From contig DATDPG010000063.1 in NCBI GenBank assembly GCA_035292885.1, forward strand, positions 1 to 32,394: a stretch of 32,394 nucleotides of DNA, in the 5' to 3' direction. The DNA comes from Bdellovibrionota bacterium. Its GTDB lineage: Bacteria > Bdellovibrionota_G > JALEGL01 > DATDPG01. Of the stretch, positions 4,364 through 32,273 are shown piece after piece (the stretch's first letter is position 1; each line of letters starts with the position of its first letter). Made by a program: the position numbers and the translations under genes. The notes under the pieces were generated by a model. The model had not been told where the DNA came from, ran no database searches, and saw only the letters and a program-made list of their open reading frames with translations.

Positions 4364-6046
4364 TTATAGAGGCATCGCCCGGATCTTCAGTTCCAGGCCG
4401 GGGTGGATCGTGTCATCCGCTGCAAGTCGGTTCCATTTCATGATATCGGCCGTACTCACGCCGAACTTCTTCGCGATATTCCAAAGAGTGTCTCCAGCTT
4501 GAACGCGGTAGGTCGTCCATCCCTTATCAGACGGATTGGACGCAACCTGCGGAGCCGATTCCTTTGAAGGAACGAGCATTGCGGGATCGGATCGAGCATA
4601 CAGCTTTAGTTTTTGTCCCGGCCGGACCGATGACCCATGACTGAGGTTGTTCCATTCGCGGATTTCCGTGACGGTCACGCCGAACCTGCGTGAGATCGAC
4701 CACAAGGTATCGCCCGGCCGGATCACGTAATTCGATTTTTGTCCTGCCGGCGGTTTGTAAGCGACGCGGCGGACGGTTTCTTCGGACCCGCGATAGGGAA
4801 CAGCGAGCTGAAGTCCGGGCTTTACCCGGTGGGAAGGGAGTCGGTTAAACGATGCAAGCGCCGTGGTGTTTACACCGTATCGCCGGGCGATCGTGGAGAG
4901 CGTTTCGCCGCGCTTGACGACGTGGCGAGCGACCGACGTGACCGATTTTCTCCGAATTTCCGGATAGGCCGCGACAAACTTCTCTTTGTATCTCTTGGGA
5001 ACATTTAGTTCGTAATTCGGCATGTCCGGCGGCGTGATGTCCCGGCGCAGCTCTGGATTGAGTTCCGTGAGCGTATCGTGGGAGATTCCGAGGACACCGG
5101 CGATCACCGAAAGTTCCGTCGGCTCCGGGACCAAGACCTTGTCGTATTCCAGCGGATCTTCGTACTCGATCCCCTCAAATCCATACCGTTCCGGCTCTTT
5201 CGCGATCAGGGCGGCCGCGATCATTTTGGGGACGTAATCTTTGGTTTCCGTTTTCAGGTACCGATGCTTCGACATCTCCCAAAAATCTTCGGTGGAGTAG
5301 CGCCGGATGGCCTTTTCGATCTTTCCGGCTCCGGCGTTATAGCTCGCGGCGGCCAAATACCAGGAGTTGAATTGATCGTAGAGATCTTTTAGATGTTGGG
5401 CCGCGGCGATCGACGATTTTTCGGGATCGCGCCGTTCATCCACCCACCAGGTGACCCGAAGGCCGTATCGGCTTCCGGTACCCTTGATGAATTGCCAAGG
5501 GCCGCTCGCGCGTGCGCGGGAATACGCATACGGCTTGAATCCGCTCTCGATCATCGAAAGATAGACCAGATCTTCGGGGAGGCCGTTTTCACGCAGAATT
5601 CTGCGCATCATCGGAATGTATTTTTCCGAACGCGCCAGCCAGGCGGTAAAGACCTTTCGTCCGTTCGTCTGAAAATAGCGAATCCATTTTTCGACGTGGG
5701 CGTTGACGACGATCGGAATGTCGAACGTGGGAATCTTCGTTTCGTCGATCTTTCCGATTTCGGCTTCGGCCTCCTCCCCGATAATTTTTTCGACCGCTTT
5801 CGACGGCTCCTTTTCCTCGGCAAGTTCCGTGGGCGTGGTGCCTTCGTAGAAGGGTGTGACCTCTTTTTCCGTCGAAGAGGTTTCAGAGGCGGCGGGAGGC
5901 GCCTTCGGACAGAGCTCGGAAATCGTATTCACGCAAGCCGGTGTCGCGGGGGCTTTGGCCGCCGTTTCGGGGGCTTTGTGATCGGCGCAAGCGACCAGGC
6001 TTACGCAAGCTGCCAACAGCGCATTTTTCAACGATCGAAGCTTCAT
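4364..6046 (-). CDS. mltD: Membrane-bound lytic murein transglycosylase D with three LysM domains
   Basis: MltD cleaves the MurNAc-GlcNAc bond to 1,6-anhydro products from the inner face of the outer membrane. The 560-residue product has a lipoprotein signal with lipobox LVAC (Cys20), a Pro/Glu/Ala-rich spacer (20-105), and an SLT goose-lysozyme-like domain (about 150-275) with the motifs SMIESGF (catalytic Glu167), SGPWQFI and ASYNAG. Three LysM peptidoglycan-binding modules follow at about 375-418, 440-483 and 513-556 (each with a GDTL or GETL strand). Length and architecture are typical of the family. An antisense open frame runs over its N-terminal half but is a codon-bias shadow. Confidence 0.95.
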   Translation of the reverse strand: MKLRSLKNALLAACVSLVACADHKAPETAAKAPATPACVNTISELCPKAPPAASETSSTEKEVTPFYEGTTPTELAEEKEPSKAVEKIIGEEAEAEIGKIDETKIPTFDIPIVVNAHVEKWIRYFQTNGRKVFTAWLARSEKYIPMMRRILRENGLPEDLVYLSMIESGFKPYAYSRARASGPWQFIKGTGSRYGLRVTWWVDERRDPEKSSIAAAQHLKDLYDQFNSWYLAAASYNAGAGKIEKAIRRYSTEDFWEMSKHRYLKTETKDYVPKMIAAALIAKEPERYGFEGIEYEDPLEYDKVLVPEPTELSVIAGVLGISHDTLTELNPELRRDITPPDMPNYELNVPKRYKEKFVAAYPEIRRKSVTSVARHVVKRGETLSTIARRYGVNTTALASFNRLPSHRVKPGLQLAVPYRGSEETVRRVAYKPPAGQKSNYVIRPGDTLWSISRRFGVTVTEIREWNNLSHGSSVRPGQKLKLYARSDPAMLVPSKESAPQVASNPSDKGWTTYRVQAGDTLWNIAKKFGVSTADIMKWNRLAADDTIHPGLELKIRAMPL

Positions 6047-6092
6047 TTAGACCCATTCATCCATTTAAATGCGTGCGATCGGGTGGGGCATA

Positions 6093-6167
6093 GGCGGAAT
6101 TCCGGGGACATGTACTTGTTACGTGTCCCCGGAAATTGAAATCGGTACATGCCCCCAGAATTCCGCC
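6093..6167. repeat. 75-bp nested palindrome (REP/REPIN-like)
   Basis: Outer arms 6093-6115 and 6145-6167 are 23 nt each and inverted, differing at two positions (core GGCGGAATTC...GGGG...CATGTAC). A second inverted pair, GGGGACA at 6104-6110 and TGTCCCC at 6124-6130, lies inside, so two alternative hairpins can form. The GGAATTCCGGGGACA-type core resembles short palindromes spread by REP-associated Y1 transposases. It lies between the divergent mltD and M1-like/Omp85 genes and could influence transcription of either. Confidence 0.75.
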
Positions 6168-6333
6168 GCGCTCCGAACGCGGATCTCCCCAATACTCGGA
6201 CAGGCTCCTAGCGACGGTTCGAGGATAGGGAATGGGGGTCGGAAAGTCAACGAGCCGGACGCGGAAATGGCTCGGATTCTTCCCGAGTTTCAAGGGTTTA
6301 TGCTACGGTCAAAAAGCACCCGCATCCCGCACG

Positions 6334-9036
6334 ATGAAATCGCCGATTCTATTTTTCGTGGGCGCACTTTTGTCGGTTCCCGCCGCTTTCGGCTTTACCG
6401 ATCCCCTGCATCGAACGTATCGAATCCACGCCGATCTTCGCGGTTTCGAGAATCGCGAGATCACCGCCGGGATGGAAATGGATATCGAAAATCGAGGATC
6501 CACACCCGTTCAGGAGCTTCGGTTGATGACCTACCCCAACCGGTTCGAGCGGCCGCTCCCGGAACTCAACGATTTAAATTATCGGCGCGTCTATCCGAAC
6601 GGTTTTTCGCGGGGATCCCTATCGATCGAAGAATCGTCGCTGATCACCGGCGAAAAACTCACCCTTGAGGAACAGTCCATCAAAGGTCTTCCGCCGCGCA
6701 CCCTCTGGCGGATCGCTCTACCCAAACCGATCGAGCCGAATCAAAGCGTCACCATACGGATTCGCTATCGGCTGAAGGTGCCGAAAAAATATGGAACGTT
6801 CGGATATTACCGCGGCGTGCTGACGCTTTCTGGAGGTTGGTATCCGTATATCGTCTCCTACGATGAAAGGACGGGATTCCGGCCCAACGATTTTCCGCCT
6901 CCGGCCTCCTGGAAATTGCGTTTTCAAACCGACGTTCCTCTGATCGCGGGGAATCGCATCCTTACGCCGGCTTCCGGAATCGCCGAGGACGACCCGGGCG
7001 AGCGGAGGGAGATCAGCCTTTGGATGTCGCGGCGGATGCATGTGGAGCAGATCGCGGGCCGCCAGCAGAAAATTCAGATCGTTTTGCGCAAGGAGCAATC
7101 GACGGTCATTTCCCGTGTCCGGGAGCTGGCCGTCAATTGGCTGGATTTCTTGGATCACCAGCCCGCGCTTTCGGATGGGCCGTCGGAAATCTTTTTGGTG
7201 CAGGCGCCGCTCCGAGAAGCTTTGGTCACGGAAGGAGAAGGAATCACCTATTTTTCCGACCGAGCGTTCAAACTCTTTCCGACGCTCGGGCAATATCATT
7301 CCGTTCCGTTTTTGAGGGGTCTCTTCTATCAATTCCTTTTGCCCGAAGTCAGCCGGCGGGAATCCGCGGCCGATTACGATTGGGTCGTCGAAGCCTTGGC
7401 GTGGAACTGGACGCAGGAATTTACGCGCGAGAAAAATTTTGAAACCATGGATGCCCGGCGCCTCGGCCTGGTCCGGGCGTTTGCCTTCCTTCCGGCCGTG
7501 GATGAAGTGATCTACGCGCCGCAGTTCGCGTTTTACGACGTCTTTTACGACTTCGTTTATCCGTACGATCCGGTTCGGGACGAGGCTTTGCACTTCAACC
7601 ATCCCAAGCCGTACGGCCGGGCGATCTTCGCGCATCTCGAAGACGAGGTAGGCGCGGAAAAAGCGGCCGAAATCGCCGGCGGATATTTGGTCCAACCGGA
7701 TGTTCGATTCGAAGATTTGGCGGCACTTCGGTGTGGAAAAGATCTGTCAGAAAATTTCGTCCAATGGACGACACCGCGCACGGCGATCAATTACGATCTT
7801 AAGCGGCATCGTGAACGGAAAACGGAAAACGGTTATGAGCAGGAAGTGACGGTACTGCGGCAGAGTCCGGCGGAGATCGTTGAACCGGTGGAACTTCGGG
7901 CGGTGGGCGGCGACGGAGAGATCCGGACTCTCGTCTGGAACGGTGCAGGGAGCGAACATATTTTTCAGTTTCGCACCAAGACAAAAGTGAAGATTTTGGA
8001 AATCGATCCCCGGCGGCGGTTGGACGAGAGTCGTCTCGCGGACAACCGGCATCCTCCGAAATACAAATTCGTCCTCACGGAAGTCATTTTGGACTACGAC
8101 TTCAGCGGAAGCCGGCCATCCTTTTCCGTGGGTACGCAATTTCGGCGATCGTACGGAGGATCGAATCGGTACAACTTCGGCGGTTTCTTGACGACCGATG
8201 AATACGGTTTCGGCGTCGGATACACACGCCTCTTCGGCCGATTGATCGACCGCCTTCGGTTAAGCCATGCCATGGGGATCAGTTACGACCTCGTGAGGCT
8301 GGAGGAAGATCGGTTCGGTTTTATCGATCCGGCGACGGGGCAGACGCAGATCGTGCAAACCTCTCCCTCGATTCGAACGACTTCCGTGACGGTGAGTTAC
8401 GGATTCGGCAATCAACTCTCCACGACCAACCCGCTCCAAGGAGGCCACGCCGGTCTGTCCGTGACCTGGGGAAGCGAGGCGTTGGGCGGCGAGGCCGATT
8501 ACTACCGAACCAGCGTCGGTGGAGGCTGGATCTGGAAAATCCATCCGAGTCATCTTTTAGCGTGGCGTGCCCTTTTAGGCGCTTCCGGACCGGACGATAT
8601 CCCGACTCAAGTTCGTTACTCATTGGGCGGAATCAATGCGATCCGAGGTCTGGCTGTGGATGATCCGAAACACCAGGGCCGTTACATCGTCCTGGGCAGC
8701 GGGGAGTATCGCCATTTCTTGATTCAAGATATCGATATCAACTTGTGGCTCCTTCGCATACGGGATGTTCAGGGCGCCCTGTTTTTGGATGCGGGGAATG
8801 CCACCGACACGGTTTACGAGCGGGCCCAGATTCTGGCCAATGGAGGCGGTTCGCACACGACTTTGGGGGATCTGTTCGATCTCCCGTCGTGGTCGAGCGA
8901 CGTCGGTTACGGGATTCGGTTTCACATCGAATACCTGGGCGTCGATCCCGCGCTGGCTCGATTCGATGTCGCGAAAAGCCTGGACGACGGCAGTCAAAGA
9001 ACTCGATTTTATTTCGGCGTGACGCAAAGCTTTTAG
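6334..9036 (+). CDS. Fusion of inactive M1-peptidase-like domain and Omp85/BamA-type outer-membrane barrel
   Basis: I start at the ATG at 6334 because it opens a clean signal peptide (MKSPILFFVGALLSVPAAFG); an ATG at 6232 adds 34 unlikely residues. Of 900 residues, about 20-210 form a beta-rich domain like the aminopeptidase N N-terminal saddle. Residues about 220-480 resemble the M1 catalytic domain: WVVEALAW at 350-357 corresponds to the WLNEGFA helix, but the HEXXH helix is replaced around 329-338 by GLFYQFLLPE, so no zinc site is expected. From about 575 the protein turns into alternating amphipathic strands with the Omp85 signatures GGINAIRGL (about 766-774) and GALFLDAGN, and it ends in Phe as outer-membrane barrels do. 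No POTRA repeats are evident. The likely location is the outer membrane with a periplasmic M1-like domain. The role is unknown; assembly or secretion of a dedicated substrate is possible. Confidence 0.8.
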   Translation: MKSPILFFVGALLSVPAAFGFTDPLHRTYRIHADLRGFENREITAGMEMDIENRGSTPVQELRLMTYPNRFERPLPELNDLNYRRVYPNGFSRGSLSIEESSLITGEKLTLEEQSIKGLPPRTLWRIALPKPIEPNQSVTIRIRYRLKVPKKYGTFGYYRGVLTLSGGWYPYIVSYDERTGFRPNDFPPPASWKLRFQTDVPLIAGNRILTPASGIAEDDPGERREISLWMSRRMHVEQIAGRQQKIQIVLRKEQSTVISRVRELAVNWLDFLDHQPALSDGPSEIFLVQAPLREALVTEGEGITYFSDRAFKLFPTLGQYHSVPFLRGLFYQFLLPEVSRRESAADYDWVVEALAWNWTQEFTREKNFETMDARRLGLVRAFAFLPAVDEVIYAPQFAFYDVFYDFVYPYDPVRDEALHFNHPKPYGRAIFAHLEDEVGAEKAAEIAGGYLVQPDVRFEDLAALRCGKDLSENFVQWTTPRTAINYDLKRHRERKTENGYEQEVTVLRQSPAEIVEPVELRAVGGDGEIRTLVWNGAGSEHIFQFRTKTKVKILEIDPRRRLDESRLADNRHPPKYKFVLTEVILDYDFSGSRPSFSVGTQFRRSYGGSNRYNFGGFLTTDEYGFGVGYTRLFGRLIDRLRLSHAMGISYDLVRLEEDRFGFIDPATGQTQIVQTSPSIRTTSVTVSYGFGNQLSTTNPLQGGHAGLSVTWGSEALGGEADYYRTSVGGGWIWKIHPSHLLAWRALLGASGPDDIPTQVRYSLGGINAIRGLAVDDPKHQGRYIVLGSGEYRHFLIQDIDINLWLLRIRDVQGALFLDAGNATDTVYERAQILANGGGSHTTLGDLFDLPSWSSDVGYGIRFHIEYLGVDPALARFDVAKSLDDGSQRTRFYFGVTQSF

Positions 9037-9041
9037 GCTGG

Positions 9042-9233
9042 AGCCCGGATCCGACAATATTTGTTTGGTGAAAACCGCTAAAGCTCGCGCGATAGCGCGC
9101 CATCCGCGGCCGTGCTCGTCCTCGTCAATGCTCACTTACTGTTAAGTAAGCTGCGCTTGACTCGGCCTGCGCTTGGCCACGGCTGACGCACTCTCGCGCA
9201 TTTTCCCTCAAAAAATATTGTCGGATCCGGGCT
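9042..9233. mobile_element. 192-bp MITE-like element with perfect 21-bp terminal inverted repeats
   Basis: Ends 9042-9062 and 9213-9233 are perfect inverted copies (AGCCCGGATCCGACAATAT plus two bases). TGG occurs directly on both outer sides (9039-9041 and 9234-9236), fitting a 3-bp target duplication. The interior has no gene and is itself an imperfect palindrome centred on CTTACT/AGTAAG, extended by GTCAA...TTGAC, so one strand would fold into a single long hairpin. It was probably mobilised by a transposase encoded elsewhere. Confidence 0.75.
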
Positions 9234-9257
9234 TGGAACAAGGGTATAATGAACGCC

Positions 9258-9842
9258 ATGAGAAAATGGTTCCGGATTCTTACGGCGATGGTTTTCTTCG
9301 CCTGGCCTTCCCTGTCGATGTGCGCCACGCCGGATGAAGATGCGATTCAGGCCACGTTGGGGGATTTTTTCCAGATCTACGTTTTGCGCAAGGATCACCG
9401 GAGTTCCGAAGACCAGGTCACCGTCCGGAGCGCGGGGGCCGGCCGGTACAGCGCGGAAATTTCGTATTGGCGGAGTCTCAAATCCCGCGATCCGGTGGAA
9501 GAGATCTGCAACGCGTACAAATGGATCTTTTTCGGCCGCGGAACCTACGGGAAGGGGGCGCCCAAAGCATTCGAACGATTCTCGAATCTGGATGAAATCC
9601 AGCTCCGTTTTTTTGACATCGAATTCACGACGAAGTTGGGGACAAAGCGGGCCGAGATCCTCCCTTCCGAGAAAGTGATCCCGTATTTGAAGATCGGCGT
9701 GAAGCGAAGCTCGTTGGAAAAGAAGAAACCGAACTGGTCGGAGATACAGTCCGAACTCTCCAAAGGGCGCTGCGCCAATATCGGAGACCAGTATCTCGAT
9801 ACGAAATGGCTGAACGAAGCTTACATTCGACAGGGAAAGTGA
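9258..9842 (+). CDS. Secreted or periplasmic protein of unknown function
   Basis: The product (194 residues from 9258) starts MRKWFRILTAMVFFAWPSLSMC, a good Sec signal peptide ending near SMCA. The mature part is about 170 residues, mixed alpha/beta, Lys-rich at its end, with no motif I recognise. An earlier ATG at 9249 overlaps a perfect TATAAT (9245-9250); if that is the promoter, the transcript would begin close to the 9258 ATG and be nearly leaderless. There is no convincing -35. The TATAAT lies just outside the right end of the MITE. The stop is one base from the next gene's GTG. Confidence 0.55.
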   Translation: MRKWFRILTAMVFFAWPSLSMCATPDEDAIQATLGDFFQIYVLRKDHRSSEDQVTVRSAGAGRYSAEISYWRSLKSRDPVEEICNAYKWIFFGRGTYGKGAPKAFERFSNLDEIQLRFFDIEFTTKLGTKRAEILPSEKVIPYLKIGVKRSSLEKKKPNWSEIQSELSKGRCANIGDQYLDTKWLNEAYIRQGK

Positions 9843-9843
9843 T

Positions 9844-10302
9844 GTGAGTGCCGGAGTTGTTTTTTTGACCGCGGCAATTGCGTTGCTCGGCGCGCCGCCG
9901 GCCCGTTCGCCCGTCCAGCCGACGCCCATGGCGCCGCCGACGCCGGCTCTGTCCGAAGATCCACACGTGAACTATTGGATTCAGACGCTTGCCAGTCACC
10001 CGCTGAAGATGATCCGAAAAAATGCGGCCCGGCAGTTGGGATCGATCGGGAATCCGAGTTCCCTTCCGGCCCTTGCGCAAGCTCTCAAAGATCCGTTCTA
10101 CGGCGTGCGGCAAGAGTCGGCGAGGTCGCTCGGTCTCTTGGGGGACGAGCGAGCTTTGTCGCCGCTCTTCGAAGCTCAGCAGAAGGACACGGACGCCACC
10201 GTAAAACACGCGGCGCGAGACGCGATCGAGCGGATCAAGGCCCGTCAGGATTATCAGAAAAAGAAAGAAGAGAAGCGTCAACAACAGGCGCAGCCGAAGT
10301 AG
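9844..10302 (+). CDS. Small HEAT-repeat protein with signal-like N-terminus
   Basis: The GTG at 9844 lies one base after the preceding stop. The 152-residue product has an N-terminal hydrophobic stretch (VVFLTAAIALLGAPPA), a Pro-rich linker, and two to three HEAT/PBS-lyase-type helical repeats between about 40 and 130 (KNAARQLGSIG, QESARSLGLLGDERAL, KHAARDAIERI). The tail is Lys/Gln-rich. HEAT repeats usually mediate protein-protein contacts. Coupling to the upstream secreted protein suggests both work in the periplasm, but the function is not known. The convergent CDF gene ends on the next base. Confidence 0.7.
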   Translation: MSAGVVFLTAAIALLGAPPARSPVQPTPMAPPTPALSEDPHVNYWIQTLASHPLKMIRKNAARQLGSIGNPSSLPALAQALKDPFYGVRQESARSLGLLGDERALSPLFEAQQKDTDATVKHAARDAIERIKARQDYQKKKEEKRQQQAQPK

Positions 10303-11205
10303 TCACGCCGGCTTCTGAATCTTTGCCGGAATCTGCAGCGCGGCCACTTGGATGGTGGCGTGCGTGACCGAAAATTCGCTTCGGAGCCGGTCGGATATTC
10401 GGTGAATGATCGATTCGCTCTCCTTGGTGCGCATGTCGTGCACCAAAATGTGCGCGCTGGCCGCATAAAATCCGGAGCTGATCGTCCAGACGTGAAGGTC
10501 ATGCACATCCTCGACGCCATCGATTTCCAGGATTGCGTTTCGCACTTTATCGAGAGAGATATGGGATGGGGAGGCTTCCAACAGTACGTCTACGGCTGTA
10601 CGAAGGAGGCGTACCGAAGTTACGGCGATCCAGCCGGCCAAAAGAGCGCTTAGAAGCGGATCGAAAAAGAGCCAATTCGTAACGTACATGACCCCGGCGG
10701 CGAGCACGACGGCGACGGAAGAGAGGGTGTCCCCCAGAACGTGAAGAAAGGCCGATCGTGTCGCCAAGTGTTCCATTTGATGGCGAAGCAGGAACATCGA
10801 AATCAAATTGACGATCAAGCCCGCCGCGGCGATCGGAAGCATGATGTCGAGCCGGACCGGTTCGACGTGCAGCAAACGATGGGCGGCTTCCCACAAAATC
10901 TGAAAGGCGACGAAGAGCATGAGGACACCGTTGACGAGCGTCACGAGGATTTCGACACGGTAGTACCCGTACGTTTTCTGATGCGTGGCCGGTTTTGTCG
11001 CCCACCAGATCGACACAAGCGTCAGCACGAGGGAAAAAAGATCCGCCAGCATGTGTCCGGCGTCCGAAAGAAGCGCGAGGCTGTTGGAAATCAAGCCGCC
11101 CGCAATCTCGACGATGAACAAGACGAAAGTGATCCCCGCCGCGATTCCCAACCGGTGGCGCGCCTTTTCACGCATGGGATCGATCAAATGGGCGCGGTGA
11201 GCCAT
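10303..11205 (-). CDS. Cation diffusion facilitator (ZitB/CzcD-like metal exporter)
   Basis: CDF proteins export Zn(II) or related divalent metals by proton antiport. The 300-residue product has six membrane segments. TM2 carries SLALLSDAGHMLAD (Asp48, His51, Asp55) and TM5 carries HVLGD (His155, Asp159), the metal-site pattern of Zn-type CDFs; Asp48 and His51 and the TM5 pair form the transport site in characterised members. The cytoplasmic C-terminal domain (about 205-290, VEDVHDLHVWTISSG) has the dimerisation fold. I chose the ATG at 11205; an open frame to 11415 would run antisense across the divergent small gene at 11231. Confidence 0.92.
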   Translation of the reverse strand: MAHRAHLIDPMREKARHRLGIAAGITFVLFIVEIAGGLISNSLALLSDAGHMLADLFSLVLTLVSIWWATKPATHQKTYGYYRVEILVTLVNGVLMLFVAFQILWEAAHRLLHVEPVRLDIMLPIAAAGLIVNLISMFLLRHQMEHLATRSAFLHVLGDTLSSVAVVLAAGVMYVTNWLFFDPLLSALLAGWIAVTSVRLLRTAVDVLLEASPSHISLDKVRNAILEIDGVEDVHDLHVWTISSGFYAASAHILVHDMRTKESESIIHRISDRLRSEFSVTHATIQVAALQIPAKIQKPA

Positions 11206-17452: not shown

Positions 17453-17605
<153 letters not shown>

Positions 17606-25758: not shown

Positions 25759-28608
25759 TTATCGAGGATCTGGTCTCACATTGGAGCGGAGTCGAAGTGA
25801 ACCCGCACTTACTAGCATGATGAAAATGAGAAAGAAGAGTTCGCGGGAAGATGTTGTGGCGCTGCCGCAGCCGTACAAATGCGTAACCACGGTGTCACTC
25901 TGGGAAGAGGCGTTCAAGTCCGGATCGATCAAGAACGTGGCGGGGTCGCCCTGAAGAAGACGCAAACTTCCCCCCATTTCATCGACCATCCAACACTCGG
26001 GCGCGCCGTTGGGGGTGGACAGGCAGATGTTATTCGTCGATCCCAGGACCAAGCAGGCCGAGATCTCAGCGGGGCTGGGCGATTCGTCATTGAGGCTCAG
26101 AAGAAAACTGCCGCGCAATTCCGTAGGTAAAGAGAAGGGCTCGCCCGACTCGATCTCGACGGCCTCGATTTGGTAAAGCGAACAGACTTCCGAGGTCAAC
26201 GTCGTGCTCGCGCCGATCGACGTGACGCTCACCCCCGTTTTCCCCACGACCTGGATGAGGAGGCAGGCCGTGGCTGTATTGCCCTGGCCGTCGTCGACAA
26301 CGACACAGGCGGTGAATTTCCCTTTGGAATAGGTATGAACCTGTTCGGGTGTCCCGGCGACGTTGACGGTCCCGTCACCGAAGAACCAGCGATAGGTTAA
26401 AGGATCGCCGTTGGGATCGGTGGCCGCCGACATAAAGTTGACCTGTAGGGGAGTTTTTCCCGTAGCCGGCGAGGCGGAGAGGGAAACCCACGGAGATCCC
26501 GGGACAGGTGTAGGCGTCGGTGTTGGAGAGGGCGTTGCAGTCGGCGTGGGCGTCGGCGTGACGATCGGAGTTCGTGCCGAGAAAAGAGCTTGGATATCGC
26601 TCGGACTCAGCGCCCCCTGATAGACTCGAATCTCATCCAGCGAGCCAGCAAAGTAAGGTGTTACGGCCTGCGGGTACTGTCCGAAAACAAGATTCGTCGT
26701 CGTGGAAGGCGCACCCGATGTTCCGGTCCACGGTAGAGACGCCTTCTGAATCCCATCGACATACAACTTCCCGCCGGTCGAATCGACCACGAACACAACG
26801 AAATGCCACTGATTGTCTGCGTAACCGGAAGTCCGCAAGCTGCAAGTGCCGCCGTCCCAGACATAATCGGACCCATCGCGGAAATACCAAGCGCATAGGT
26901 CGCCCCCGTTAACAAACAGTTGGTAGCCGTTGAGAGACGCAGGAAGATATTTGTTCACGATCCCATTCAGGCCGGAAGCGGAAGTTTTTATCCACGTCGC
27001 AAGCGAAAGCGGAAAGGCATTTAAGTCGCTTGCGTGTGTCACATTGACGTAGTCGTCCACGCCGTCCAACGCGAGTGCCGGGTAACCATCGGAGGAAGTC
27101 CATGTGGGACCATTCAACAACGAACCGTTGTGGCTGTTGCCGGAAGAATCGGATGCCGTGACACCGCTTCCTTCGTTCAAATTCCAATACCCGAGAAGGA
27201 CAGGGTTTGTGGGAGTTGGAACGGGAGTCGGTGTTGGTGTGACAGTTGGAGTCGCCGTAGGAGTCGGAGTCGGAGTAGGCGTGACGCCGGTCAAAAGCTC
27301 ACACGGAACTTTAACGAGGAAAGCATCTTGGCGTGGGCCTCCCATGTTGCTGGTCCAGACCATGTACTCGCCGGTCACGTCGATGTTGGCTTTGGGCATT
27401 TTGGAGTAGTCGTCCCCTCCCCCTGCGGCGTCGAGGTTCGTCATGACGGGGGCGACAATTAAAATGTTGTTGGTTTGGGAACCGTCGAGACGGAAACAAA
27501 TAATCTCATTTGAGCGAGATAGATTATTCCGGGTAGCTCCACTTCCACAGGCGAATTGTTGAGTGGAGGGAACGCCTGGTCTCGCATTTCCATGAGTGAT
27601 GTGGTTTGGAGCCGGTACCCACTCCATGCTGTACTGCACGAGTAACTTACTGAGTGGATTCGCAAAAAAATCCCAAACATACATGGCATTTGCTTTGGGA
27701 TCCCAGTTGTCAGGGCCAACGCCGTATCCGTATCCCATATCCAGATGTCCCAAGGCACCGTCCTGATCCCAAACCATTCGTTCCGACCCGTTGCTCAAAT
27801 CGAAAATCCGCATTTCAAGATCGTATTGACCGTCGATATTTTCCAGCGACATCAGCCATCGGCCGCTTTTATCCACGTGGCATTCGTCGAAATCCCTGAT
27901 TTTCGGGAAGTACTGATATTGGCGGGTGTCTTCGTGGTAAACGAGGCAACCGAGCATCTCAGCGGTTCCATTATCTCGAAGCGAGACTGAATGAACCCGG
28001 TCGTCATCGCTCGAATGGAGTTGCCAGATGTAATTGTTCGGATATGGAGTGCTGACGTCAAAAACCGTTTCGAACTGCTTGGCCAGTACGTCGTAGCGAA
28101 GCATCCGAGGACCATCGTTCAGGTAGATTTTGGTTGGTTTCGTGCCGCTGAAATACCACCCTTCGCCGCTGTTCCAGCTATAGCCGCTGGAGGAATCAAA
28201 AATAGGGCCCAAGTTTTGAACTGCTTTGGTTAACTTGTTGTAACTAAATAGCGTAACTCCCGCTCCTCCGACGTTCCGGTTCGTTCCCAGAAAGATCAAC
28301 ATCGTGTCGCTTCCGACATGGTTGTTGATATTGCGCCAGTAGGAGTAGCCGACGGAAAATACGCAGTCGGTTTCGCCGATACAATCACTGCTGTTGGTCA
28401 GTCGAATCCCCTCCGTATTATAAGGAGAGGGGAAGACGAATGATCCGCGACCGGTGGGTAGAAATTGTTGGATCTGCACTGCGCTTAAGAGAGGGCGGGT
28501 GATATTCGTGGTCGACGATTCTAGGAAGCCCCCAGCCGCTAGAACATTGCCGGCAGCGGCAATAGCCCCTAAAAATGAACACGTTCCGAAGCGCCACGGA
28601 CCCGACAA
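25759..28608 (-). CDS. Large surface protein: propeller-like domain, LamG domain, PKD domain, C-terminal sorting-type tail
   Basis: The 949-residue product starts at TTG 28608 with AAGGAGG five nt upstream, so the start is firm. Order: signal peptide (1-24); a region of about 400 residues (40-440) with repeated W/Y-D/G strand patterns (RMLRYDVLAKQFETV, EMRIFDLSNGSERMVW), probably a beta-propeller; a Thr-Pro linker (443-467); a LamG/concanavalin-like domain (about 470-675: YWNLNEGSG, ALDGVDDYV, LDEIRVYQGALS); a second Thr-Pro linker (683-703); a PKD domain (about 705-790: DPLTYRWFFGDG, HTYSKGKF); a final beta-rich part; and a tail of GCG (913-915), hydrophobic helix (924-936) and Arg residues. 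LamG and PKD domains commonly bind glycans. The gene is bracketed by 28-nt direct repeats. Confidence 0.85.
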   Translation of the reverse strand: MSGPWRFGTCSFLGAIAAAGNVLAAGGFLESSTTNITRPLLSAVQIQQFLPTGRGSFVFPSPYNTEGIRLTNSSDCIGETDCVFSVGYSYWRNINNHVGSDTMLIFLGTNRNVGGAGVTLFSYNKLTKAVQNLGPIFDSSSGYSWNSGEGWYFSGTKPTKIYLNDGPRMLRYDVLAKQFETVFDVSTPYPNNYIWQLHSSDDDRVHSVSLRDNGTAEMLGCLVYHEDTRQYQYFPKIRDFDECHVDKSGRWLMSLENIDGQYDLEMRIFDLSNGSERMVWDQDGALGHLDMGYGYGVGPDNWDPKANAMYVWDFFANPLSKLLVQYSMEWVPAPNHITHGNARPGVPSTQQFACGSGATRNNLSRSNEIICFRLDGSQTNNILIVAPVMTNLDAAGGGDDYSKMPKANIDVTGEYMVWTSNMGGPRQDAFLVKVPCELLTGVTPTPTPTPTATPTVTPTPTPVPTPTNPVLLGYWNLNEGSGVTASDSSGNSHNGSLLNGPTWTSSDGYPALALDGVDDYVNVTHASDLNAFPLSLATWIKTSASGLNGIVNKYLPASLNGYQLFVNGGDLCAWYFRDGSDYVWDGGTCSLRTSGYADNQWHFVVFVVDSTGGKLYVDGIQKASLPWTGTSGAPSTTTNLVFGQYPQAVTPYFAGSLDEIRVYQGALSPSDIQALFSARTPIVTPTPTPTATPSPTPTPTPVPGSPWVSLSASPATGKTPLQVNFMSAATDPNGDPLTYRWFFGDGTVNVAGTPEQVHTYSKGKFTACVVVDDGQGNTATACLLIQVVGKTGVSVTSIGASTTLTSEVCSLYQIEAVEIESGEPFSLPTELRGSFLLSLNDESPSPAEISACLVLGSTNNICLSTPNGAPECWMVDEMGGSLRLLQGDPATFLIDPDLNASSQSDTVVTHLYGCGSATTSSRELFFLIFIMLVSAGSLRLRSNVRPDPR

Positions 28609-30864: not shown

Positions 30865-32273
30865 TTACCTGACTCCGTTACCCTTCCTGCCACGTCGAGC
30901 CGCGAACAACACCCATAGACCTACGCCCAGCAAATATAGCGAAAGAGTGTGAAACGAGGCCGGCCATGCGCACCCCGCCGTTCCCCTTGAAAAGTGGATC
31001 TCAATGGACCTGCTTCCTTCACATAAATCTCCCTCACCGTCGCCGTTCTTGTCGGATTGATCCGGATCGAAAATGAGAGGACAGGTATCCTCTTCGTCCA
31101 GCACGCTGTCCCCATCGTCGTCTTCATCACATACGTCACCAATGCGGTCGCCGTCGGAATCCGCCTGGCGTTCATTCTGAACAAATGGACAGTTGTCCGA
31201 TGGGTCCACGACGTTGTCGTTGTCGTCATCTTCATCGCACACATTTCCAGCGGAGTCCTCGTCGTCATTGAGCTGGACTGGATTACTTGCTTCCACGCAA
31301 TTGTCGTCCGTACTGGAACGCCATCGCCATCCAAGTCATTCTGGCAAGCATCTCCCCGTCCGTTACCGTCCAAATCGGTTTGGTCCGGATTCGGAACCAG
31401 TCTGCAATTGTCCACTTCATCCGATATGCCGTCGTTGTCGTCGTCCGCGTCACACGCGTCGCCTGACCCGTCTTGATCGGCGTCAAGTTGAGTTACGTTT
31501 GCAACCGTCCGGCAGTTGTCGTCTCCGTCACTCAGCTGATCCTCATCGGAGTCCGAATCCTGGAAATCGGGTGTGCGGTCGCCATCCGTGTCGACAGCCG
31601 GAGTGAGGAGATCCGAATCCCCCGCTTCCACAGCGTCCGTGATTCCGTCTTCATCCGAATCGACGTCGGACCGGTCTGGATTTCCATCTTGGTCAGTATC
31701 TACTGTGGTGCCCGGGTACGATTCATCCACGTCGTAAATGAAATCGCCGTCCTCATCGGTTTCCGGGGGAACCGAGGTCGCATCGGCTGGATTTGTAGAG
31801 GCCAGAAATTCTCGAAGCTCGCTAAAACCGTCTTGATCAAAATCGTCGGCAGAGTTGTTGACCACATCCGGATCGAGGAGTGCGTTCTTGTACGCGGGGT
31901 TGGCGTCTCCATCCCCTCGAATAAATCCAATTCCATAATAAATCTCGAAACCGTCCGGAATACGGTCATCGTCGGTATCCACACTCCCGTTTTCCGTTGT
32001 GAATACAGCTTCCCCAACCTCGTCGGGTAGTCCGGCTGAATGGACTTTTACGACTACCGACTCCGTAACCGGAATCGCCGGGTTTTGAACGTCCGCCACG
32101 GAAACGGTGACATTCGTACCTTGTAGAATCGGTACGGTTGGCGTGATGGTAATGGTTTTGGTTATGTTGCTGGAAACGACGGTAAAGGGAACAGAAAGGC
32201 CGGATATCACAACACCAATATCGGCAGGATCGATGTTTCCGAGATCGAACCTCTTAGGACGGTATAGCGGACG
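30865..32273 (-). pseudogene. Thrombospondin type 3 repeat surface protein, frameshifted and 5'-truncated
   Basis: Two overlapping minus frames form one protein. The upstream frame (GTG at 32210; open back to 32273 without a start) has Ig-like strands, then many DxDxDGxxD calcium-binding repeats ([33 protein letters not shown]). Around 31309 the frame fails (GDGVPVRTT) and the adjacent frame continues the same repeats ([23 protein letters not shown]), consistent with one missing base. The C-terminus is [20 protein letters not shown], hydrophobic, then RRGRKGNGVR. TSP3 repeats make Ca-stabilised rods in outer-surface proteins. The 5' end was probably removed by the IS110-like element at the window edge. 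Confidence 0.8.

Follow-up and report, generated by a model that had tools for sequence, protein, structure and literature searches.

In most Gram-negative bacteria, proteins of the Omp85 type build the outer membrane or provide passage across it, and their clients are usually received through POTRA domains. The window analysed here (the whole stretch of 32,394 nucleotides, contig DATDPG010000063.1 of a Bdellovibrionota bacterium) encodes an Omp85 protein that appears to carry a dead peptidase in front of its barrel. The conservation of such a protein raises the question of whether other folds can replace POTRA in client reception, and we propose that the protein illustrates how an enzyme can, in nature, be turned into a binding module. 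The gene is the sole copy found by a search of its own genome. An alternative in-frame ATG lies upstream at 6232; the start at 6334 gives a clean signal-peptide-like N-terminus. The features of the locus are collected in Table 1.

Table 1. Features of the fusion gene, its product and the adjoining genes, with positions in the window
Feature	Position	Strand	Basis
mltD-like lytic transglycosylase, SLT and three LysM	4364..6046	-	Pfam SLT 94 bits, LysM 165 bits; head to head with the fusion gene
Pseudo-M1/Omp85 fusion protein, 900 aa	6334..9036	+	Open ORF; homologues of 33-44% identity in 5/5 phylum genomes
Probable signal peptide, residues 1-21	6334..6396	+	By-eye reading of MKSPILFFVGALLSVPAAFGF
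M1 domain I, beta-rich, residues ~22-248 (approximate border)	6397..7077	+	hhalign to M1 peptidases, Foldseek, beta strands of the model
Former catalytic M1 domain II, HEXXH lost, residues ~249-480 (approximate border)	7078..7773	+	Alignments, hhalign
SDRAFK motif, residues 308-313	7255..7272	+	S, D, R and K invariant in five phylum members
YHSVP, residues 321-325, likeliest site of the lost HEXXH	7294..7308	+	Tyr and His invariant in five members; register ambiguous
WVVEALAW, residues 350-357, Glu353 at the third-zinc-ligand position	7381..7404	+	Alignments
M1 domain III, beta, residues ~481-570	7774..8043	+	hhalign alignment reaches domain III; junction motif
Omp85 barrel, residues ~577-900	8062..9033	+	PF01103 at 590-900, BamA 4k3c profile match
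IRGL, residues 770-773, Omp85 VRGF/Y-type loop motif	8641..8652	+	LGG...RG conserved in five phylum members
Putative secreted protein, 197 aa	9249..9842	+	No Pfam family; neighbours in G001 and G002 37-39% identical
HEAT-repeat protein, 152 aa, putative signal peptide	9844..10302	+	HEAT_2 71 bits; orthologous neighbours in G001 and G002

Domain anatomy of the fusion protein

Residues 1-522 alone gave zero Pfam matches at E<=10, and Peptidase_M1 (PF01433) had no match at E<=10 in the fusion protein and none in its own genome. Likewise, neither the protein nor an N-domain profile retrieved an M1 match when PDB sequences were searched, so the relation described below is visible by profile-profile and fold comparison alone. 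Using hhalign, the N-terminal part of four members was aligned with four HEXXH-bearing M1 peptidases over 503 columns (99.7% probability, E 4e-25). Profile comparison with two groups of M1-barrel fusions with a predicted zinc site gave E-values of 6e-30 and 5e-32. Since these values hold when the 45 residues around HEXXH are masked in the zinc-site fusions (2e-30 and 6e-33), the M1 relation is independent of the WVVEALAW helix.

In the fold search that an earlier note on this DNA had proposed, the best 50 PDB matches to a weak model of the N-terminal part were all M1 aminopeptidases (from E 4.5e-12). Both structure models are of low confidence (pLDDT 51-58, 57.5 for the N-terminal part), as the alignment could draw on just four sequences, and they were used for fold search alone. 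Global TM-scores to M1 structures were low, at about 0.3, because the model is poor and its domains are badly placed. Judged from the profile and fold comparisons together, the N-terminal part has the fold of an M1 aminopeptidase and comprises domains I-III. The earlier note had read this part as M1-like without HEXXH up to residue 480, ahead of an Omp85 barrel with IRGL, FLDAG and a terminal Phe. The M1 nature and the barrel were confirmed; the limit at residue 480 was not, as the M1 unit includes domain III and ends near residue 570.

The barrel was identified by a match of residues 590-900 to Pfam Omp85 (PF01103; 53 bits, cut-off 24) and by a weak profile match to BamA 4k3c (E 0.0018). It carries the Omp85 hallmarks IRGL, FLDAG (residues 817-821) and the terminal aromatic Phe900. 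Among the Pfam matches to the fusion protein there was no POTRA even at E<=10, and we regard the protein as POTRA-less because its N-terminal part is without any Pfam match at this threshold. The presence of POTRA or another known Omp85 partner domain at the N-terminus, the outcome against which the earlier note had set its claim, was rejected, since Pfam gave no match and the alignments place residues 481-570 in M1 domain III. This domain occupies the place of the last POTRA in BamA, bears a junction motif common to other M1 proteins, DPxxxxL(D/E)...DN, and joins the barrel directly at its end. Thus, the alignments describe what is almost certainly an Omp85 protein in which a dead M1 unit (domains I-III) replaces the POTRA domains.

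The protein resembles M1 aminopeptidases (ERAP1/2, IRAP, APN/PepN, tricorn factor F3) in the fold and order of domains I-III and in the third-ligand helix, whereas it is devoid of HEXXH, GXMEN and the catalytic Tyr and has an Omp85 barrel instead of the C-terminal alpha-helical domain IV. With BamA and TamA it shares the barrel, the RG loop motif and the terminal Phe; unlike them, it has the M1 unit in place of POTRA, and it is encoded in addition to both. It failed the NCBIfam equivalogs of both proteins (26 bits vs 297 for BamA, 25 vs 625 for TamA). PlpD also joins an N-terminal domain of enzyme type to an Omp85 barrel, and this patatin domain is wholly periplasmic (PMC11116518). However, PlpD combines a patatin lipase fold with POTRA, while the fusion protein has a dead peptidase fold, no POTRA and no Pfam match to the patatin and POTRA pair by which PlpD and type Vd are recognised. 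At least one POTRA is required in the Omp85 definition of PMC11116518, which leaves the fusion protein outside; POTRA-less members are also accepted as Omp85 in PMC4104836. There, Heinz and Lithgow distinguish ten Omp85/TpsB subfamilies, recognise non-POTRA N-termini and define a 'Metallo' class by PF00149. We found no M1-type subfamily described there, and 'peptidase' is absent from the main text as the start of any word.

Loss of the zinc site and the inactive relatives

A fusion without HEXXH was found in all of the phylum genomes examined (five of five, 33-44% identity), with homologues in Bdellovibrionales HKST-UBA30, 'Deltaproteobacteria' HKST-UBA01 and Oligoflexia PL23a_bin.77 among them. 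None of the five members has the motif, nor does any protein of the two other inactive groups described below. Its former register is ambiguous: MAFFT puts it over YHSVP or about 14 residues on, over LPEVS, and hhalign sets HEIGH over HSVPF. None of these registers restores HEXXH, and an intact HEXXH-E site, which would have spoken against the earlier note, appears in none of them. In the hhalign register, the G003 and G379 proteins would retain HE (HEIPI and HERSL, respectively) without the second His. The WVVEALAW helix, noted earlier as retained, does align with the WxxEG helix that bears the third zinc ligand in active M1 enzymes; Glu353 is Glu in four of the five phylum members and Asp in G002, and is lost in the G379 protein. 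GXMEN was not found in the alignments of the fusion protein to M1 peptidases. The position of the catalytic Tyr (Tyr427) varies inside the phylum clade, and the catalytic Tyr itself is not retained. Residues newly fixed in this clade are SDR.(F/L)K, YH, DAR and PQF.F. As far as alignments can tell, the former peptidase catalytic site is lost in the fusion protein.

In a maximum-likelihood tree of the N-terminal part, nine inactive proteins lie on one side of a branch (100/99) that excludes the zinc-site fusions and the stand-alone M1 proteins. The nine belong to this phylum, to a second phylum (G015, G069, G070) and, in one case, to a third (G379). The second-phylum forms have a shortened domain II that is mostly no longer alignable; the G379 protein had no counterpart in the seven other genomes of the third phylum that were searched. 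The barrels of this phylum's group are related to those of both other inactive groups (profile E 3e-18 and 3e-13). A single loss of the zinc site is likely among the inactive forms, and falls short of proof given long branches and an unrooted tree.

Invariant positions among the five phylum members amount to 7.0% in domain I, 12.9% in domain II, 11.1% in domain III and about 20-23% in the barrel. Domain II is thus more conserved than domain I, and the former catalytic domain is therefore still in use, a case of reuse and not of decay. This conservation of an inactive M1 domain suggests reuse for holding rather than cutting proteins.

Genomic neighbourhood and proposed role

The mltD-like gene and the fusion gene face each other head to head in five of five phylum genomes, including G004, whose downstream genes differ, and this most widely conserved neighbour encodes a cell-wall enzyme. 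The pairing persists in the most distant phylum member (L018:10674-12164 and L017:3194-4435). The genes for the 197-aa and HEAT-repeat proteins lie downstream in the three genomes of the order that have downstream sequence. Part of the wider neighbourhood (rlpA, RDD) is likewise shared within the order, so we treat the adjacency to mltD as no more than suggestive. A promoter and terminator scan of positions 6000-10500 gave results at chance level. Elsewhere in the window there are genes for a 949-aa Laminin_G_3 and PKD protein, probably an exported surface protein (25759-28608, minus strand), for a TSP_3-repeat protein (30921-32210, minus strand) and for tRNA-Lys (CTT) (17495-17568, minus strand).

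Genomes that host the fusion, that of the window included, also encode a BamA-type Omp85 and, beside TamB, a TamA-type Omp85, which makes the fusion protein an additional Omp85. The two types were recognised by score, by length and by the adjoining TamB. Another unusual protein of the window's own genome (L115:5345-8611, minus strand, contig C84) has 1088 residues; HEFSH lies close to its N-terminus, and PD40 propeller repeats and an Omp85 barrel are also present. Its counterpart in G004 shows a weak Peptidase_MA_2 match.

The best overall explanation, which in our judgement falls a little short of an even chance, is that the dead M1 unit on its Omp85 barrel is a periplasmic client-binding pseudopeptidase. 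By analogy with PlpD, the M1 unit would stay in the periplasm. The former peptidase groove and the substrate-side strand may capture extended segments of client envelope proteins and leave them uncut, as suggested by BepA, an E. coli periplasmic zinc peptidase in which edge-strand contact with the substrate is needed for the chaperone-like effect on LptD while proteolysis is restrained (PMC8423444). The M1 unit would then hand the clients to the attached barrel or hold them there. The fusion protein might in this way assist BamA and TamA as a specialised accessory factor, with the 197-aa and HEAT-repeat proteins as candidate periplasmic partners. Such a client-binding role in assembly is the most likely of the functional readings, and still a tentative one that we consider slightly less probable than the general explanation. 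In its favour are the M1 identity, the lost site, the retained Glu, the barrel, the conservation and the separate BamA, TamA and TamB. Against it stand the weak structure models, the use of BepA as an analogy alone, and the fact that the most widely conserved neighbour is mltD and not an outer membrane assembly factor. BepA, as is proposed for the fusion protein, is a peptidase fold acting as an outer membrane protein chaperone; the likeness is functional, since BepA belongs to another family (M48), is soluble and keeps its ability to cut. The example of PlpD also suggests that the Omp85 scaffold may be put to uses other than assembling or translocating proteins (PMC11116518). It is a further, rather speculative step to see here an extra POTRA-less outer membrane assembly device, with the dead M1 unit as its client-receiving module and two dedicated periplasmic partners, present throughout the examined genomes of a small phylum-level lineage.

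The neighbourhood also fits another role, in which the protein acts as a scaffold in the cell wall or envelope: its dead M1 unit would hold or regulate MltD, or sense peptidoglycan peptides, and the barrel would be a membrane anchor. The constant head-to-head position of mltD points in this direction, and the HEAT-repeat and 197-aa partners are compatible with it. However, the adjacency may be inherited along with the partly conserved rlpA/RDD neighbourhood, mltD is not adjacent to the second-phylum version, and the barrel is the most conserved part of the protein, beyond what a mere anchor needs. We consider the scaffold rather unlikely, yet the strongest of the competing explanations.

Considerably less probable is an altered enzyme, whose hydrolase activity is kept or gained through a non-classical metal or nucleophile site (His322, Glu353, Ser308-Asp309-Arg310, Asp373, Arg375). 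Within the phylum, His322 never varies and Glu353 is almost constant, and the new clade-specific motifs would suit such a site, but in no register are the general base and the second zinc-binding His kept along with GXMEN and the catalytic Tyr, and most of domain II is unalignable in the second phylum. Self-export is equally doubtful: here the barrel would carry the N-terminal part of the same protein to the cell surface, the route first proposed for PlpD. A signal-peptide-like start, an N-terminal passenger and then an Omp85 barrel at the C-terminus make up the layout expected for it; on the other hand, this route was contradicted for PlpD (PMC11116518), and M1 domain III joins the barrel directly, like a periplasmic arm. 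Plain degeneration of the gene, to which the lost zinc site and the shortened version in the second phylum could be ascribed, is hardly credible with an ORF uninterrupted in all five phylum genomes (full-length in four, cut by a contig end in the fifth) and a former catalytic domain better conserved than domain I.

M1-barrel fusions with a predicted zinc site

For the client-binding pseudopeptidase that we favour, a natural comparison is offered by fusions from other lineages, in which the same frame occurs with the catalytic site present instead of absent. In a broad sample of 385 genomes we found 14 HEXXH-bearing fusions with a C-terminal barrel-like region, of about 880-1020 residues in total, for example L094:2027-4969 and L020:8958-11843 (both minus strand). 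The L094 protein is the sole one to pass both Pfam cut-offs (Peptidase_M1 55 bits, Omp85 34 bits); that of L093 reaches 20 bits for Omp85, slightly under the cut-off. Fusions such as those of L094 and L020 share the M1 unit, the junction motif and the C-terminal barrel-like region with the window protein, and differ from it in the retained HEXXH-E, in divergent barrels and in a separate position on the tree. The barrels of one zinc-site group have no Omp85 relation detectable by profile comparison. The N-domain tree rejects the hypothesis that the zinc-site fusions all arose once, separately from the stand-alone M1 proteins (p-AU 0.0007).

The homologue search recommended in the earlier note has separated two situations: relatives within the phylum are without HEXXH and adjoin an mltD-like gene, whereas HEXXH-bearing fusions occur in other lineages. 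Its view of the architecture as uncommon holds in part. Because of the zinc-site fusions, the combination of an M1 unit with a C-terminal barrel is not unique; it is a recurrent and apparently undescribed architecture. What is restricted, to judge from profiles and alignments, is the inactive, POTRA-less form, and the window protein combines clear Omp85 identity with a dead enzyme. A full-text literature search limited to open-licence papers found no report of an M1-Omp85 fusion, which is weak evidence given this scope.

In G046, which encodes the zinc-site fusion of L020, two fragments at contig ends (L022:8401-8921, plus strand, and L021:9344-9853, minus strand) may belong to one further M1-Omp85 fusion, whose catalytic region is absent from the assembly. 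The zinc-site fusions of L020 and of L091 (G111) adjoin genes that we assigned by eye to an ABC-type ATPase and a permease.
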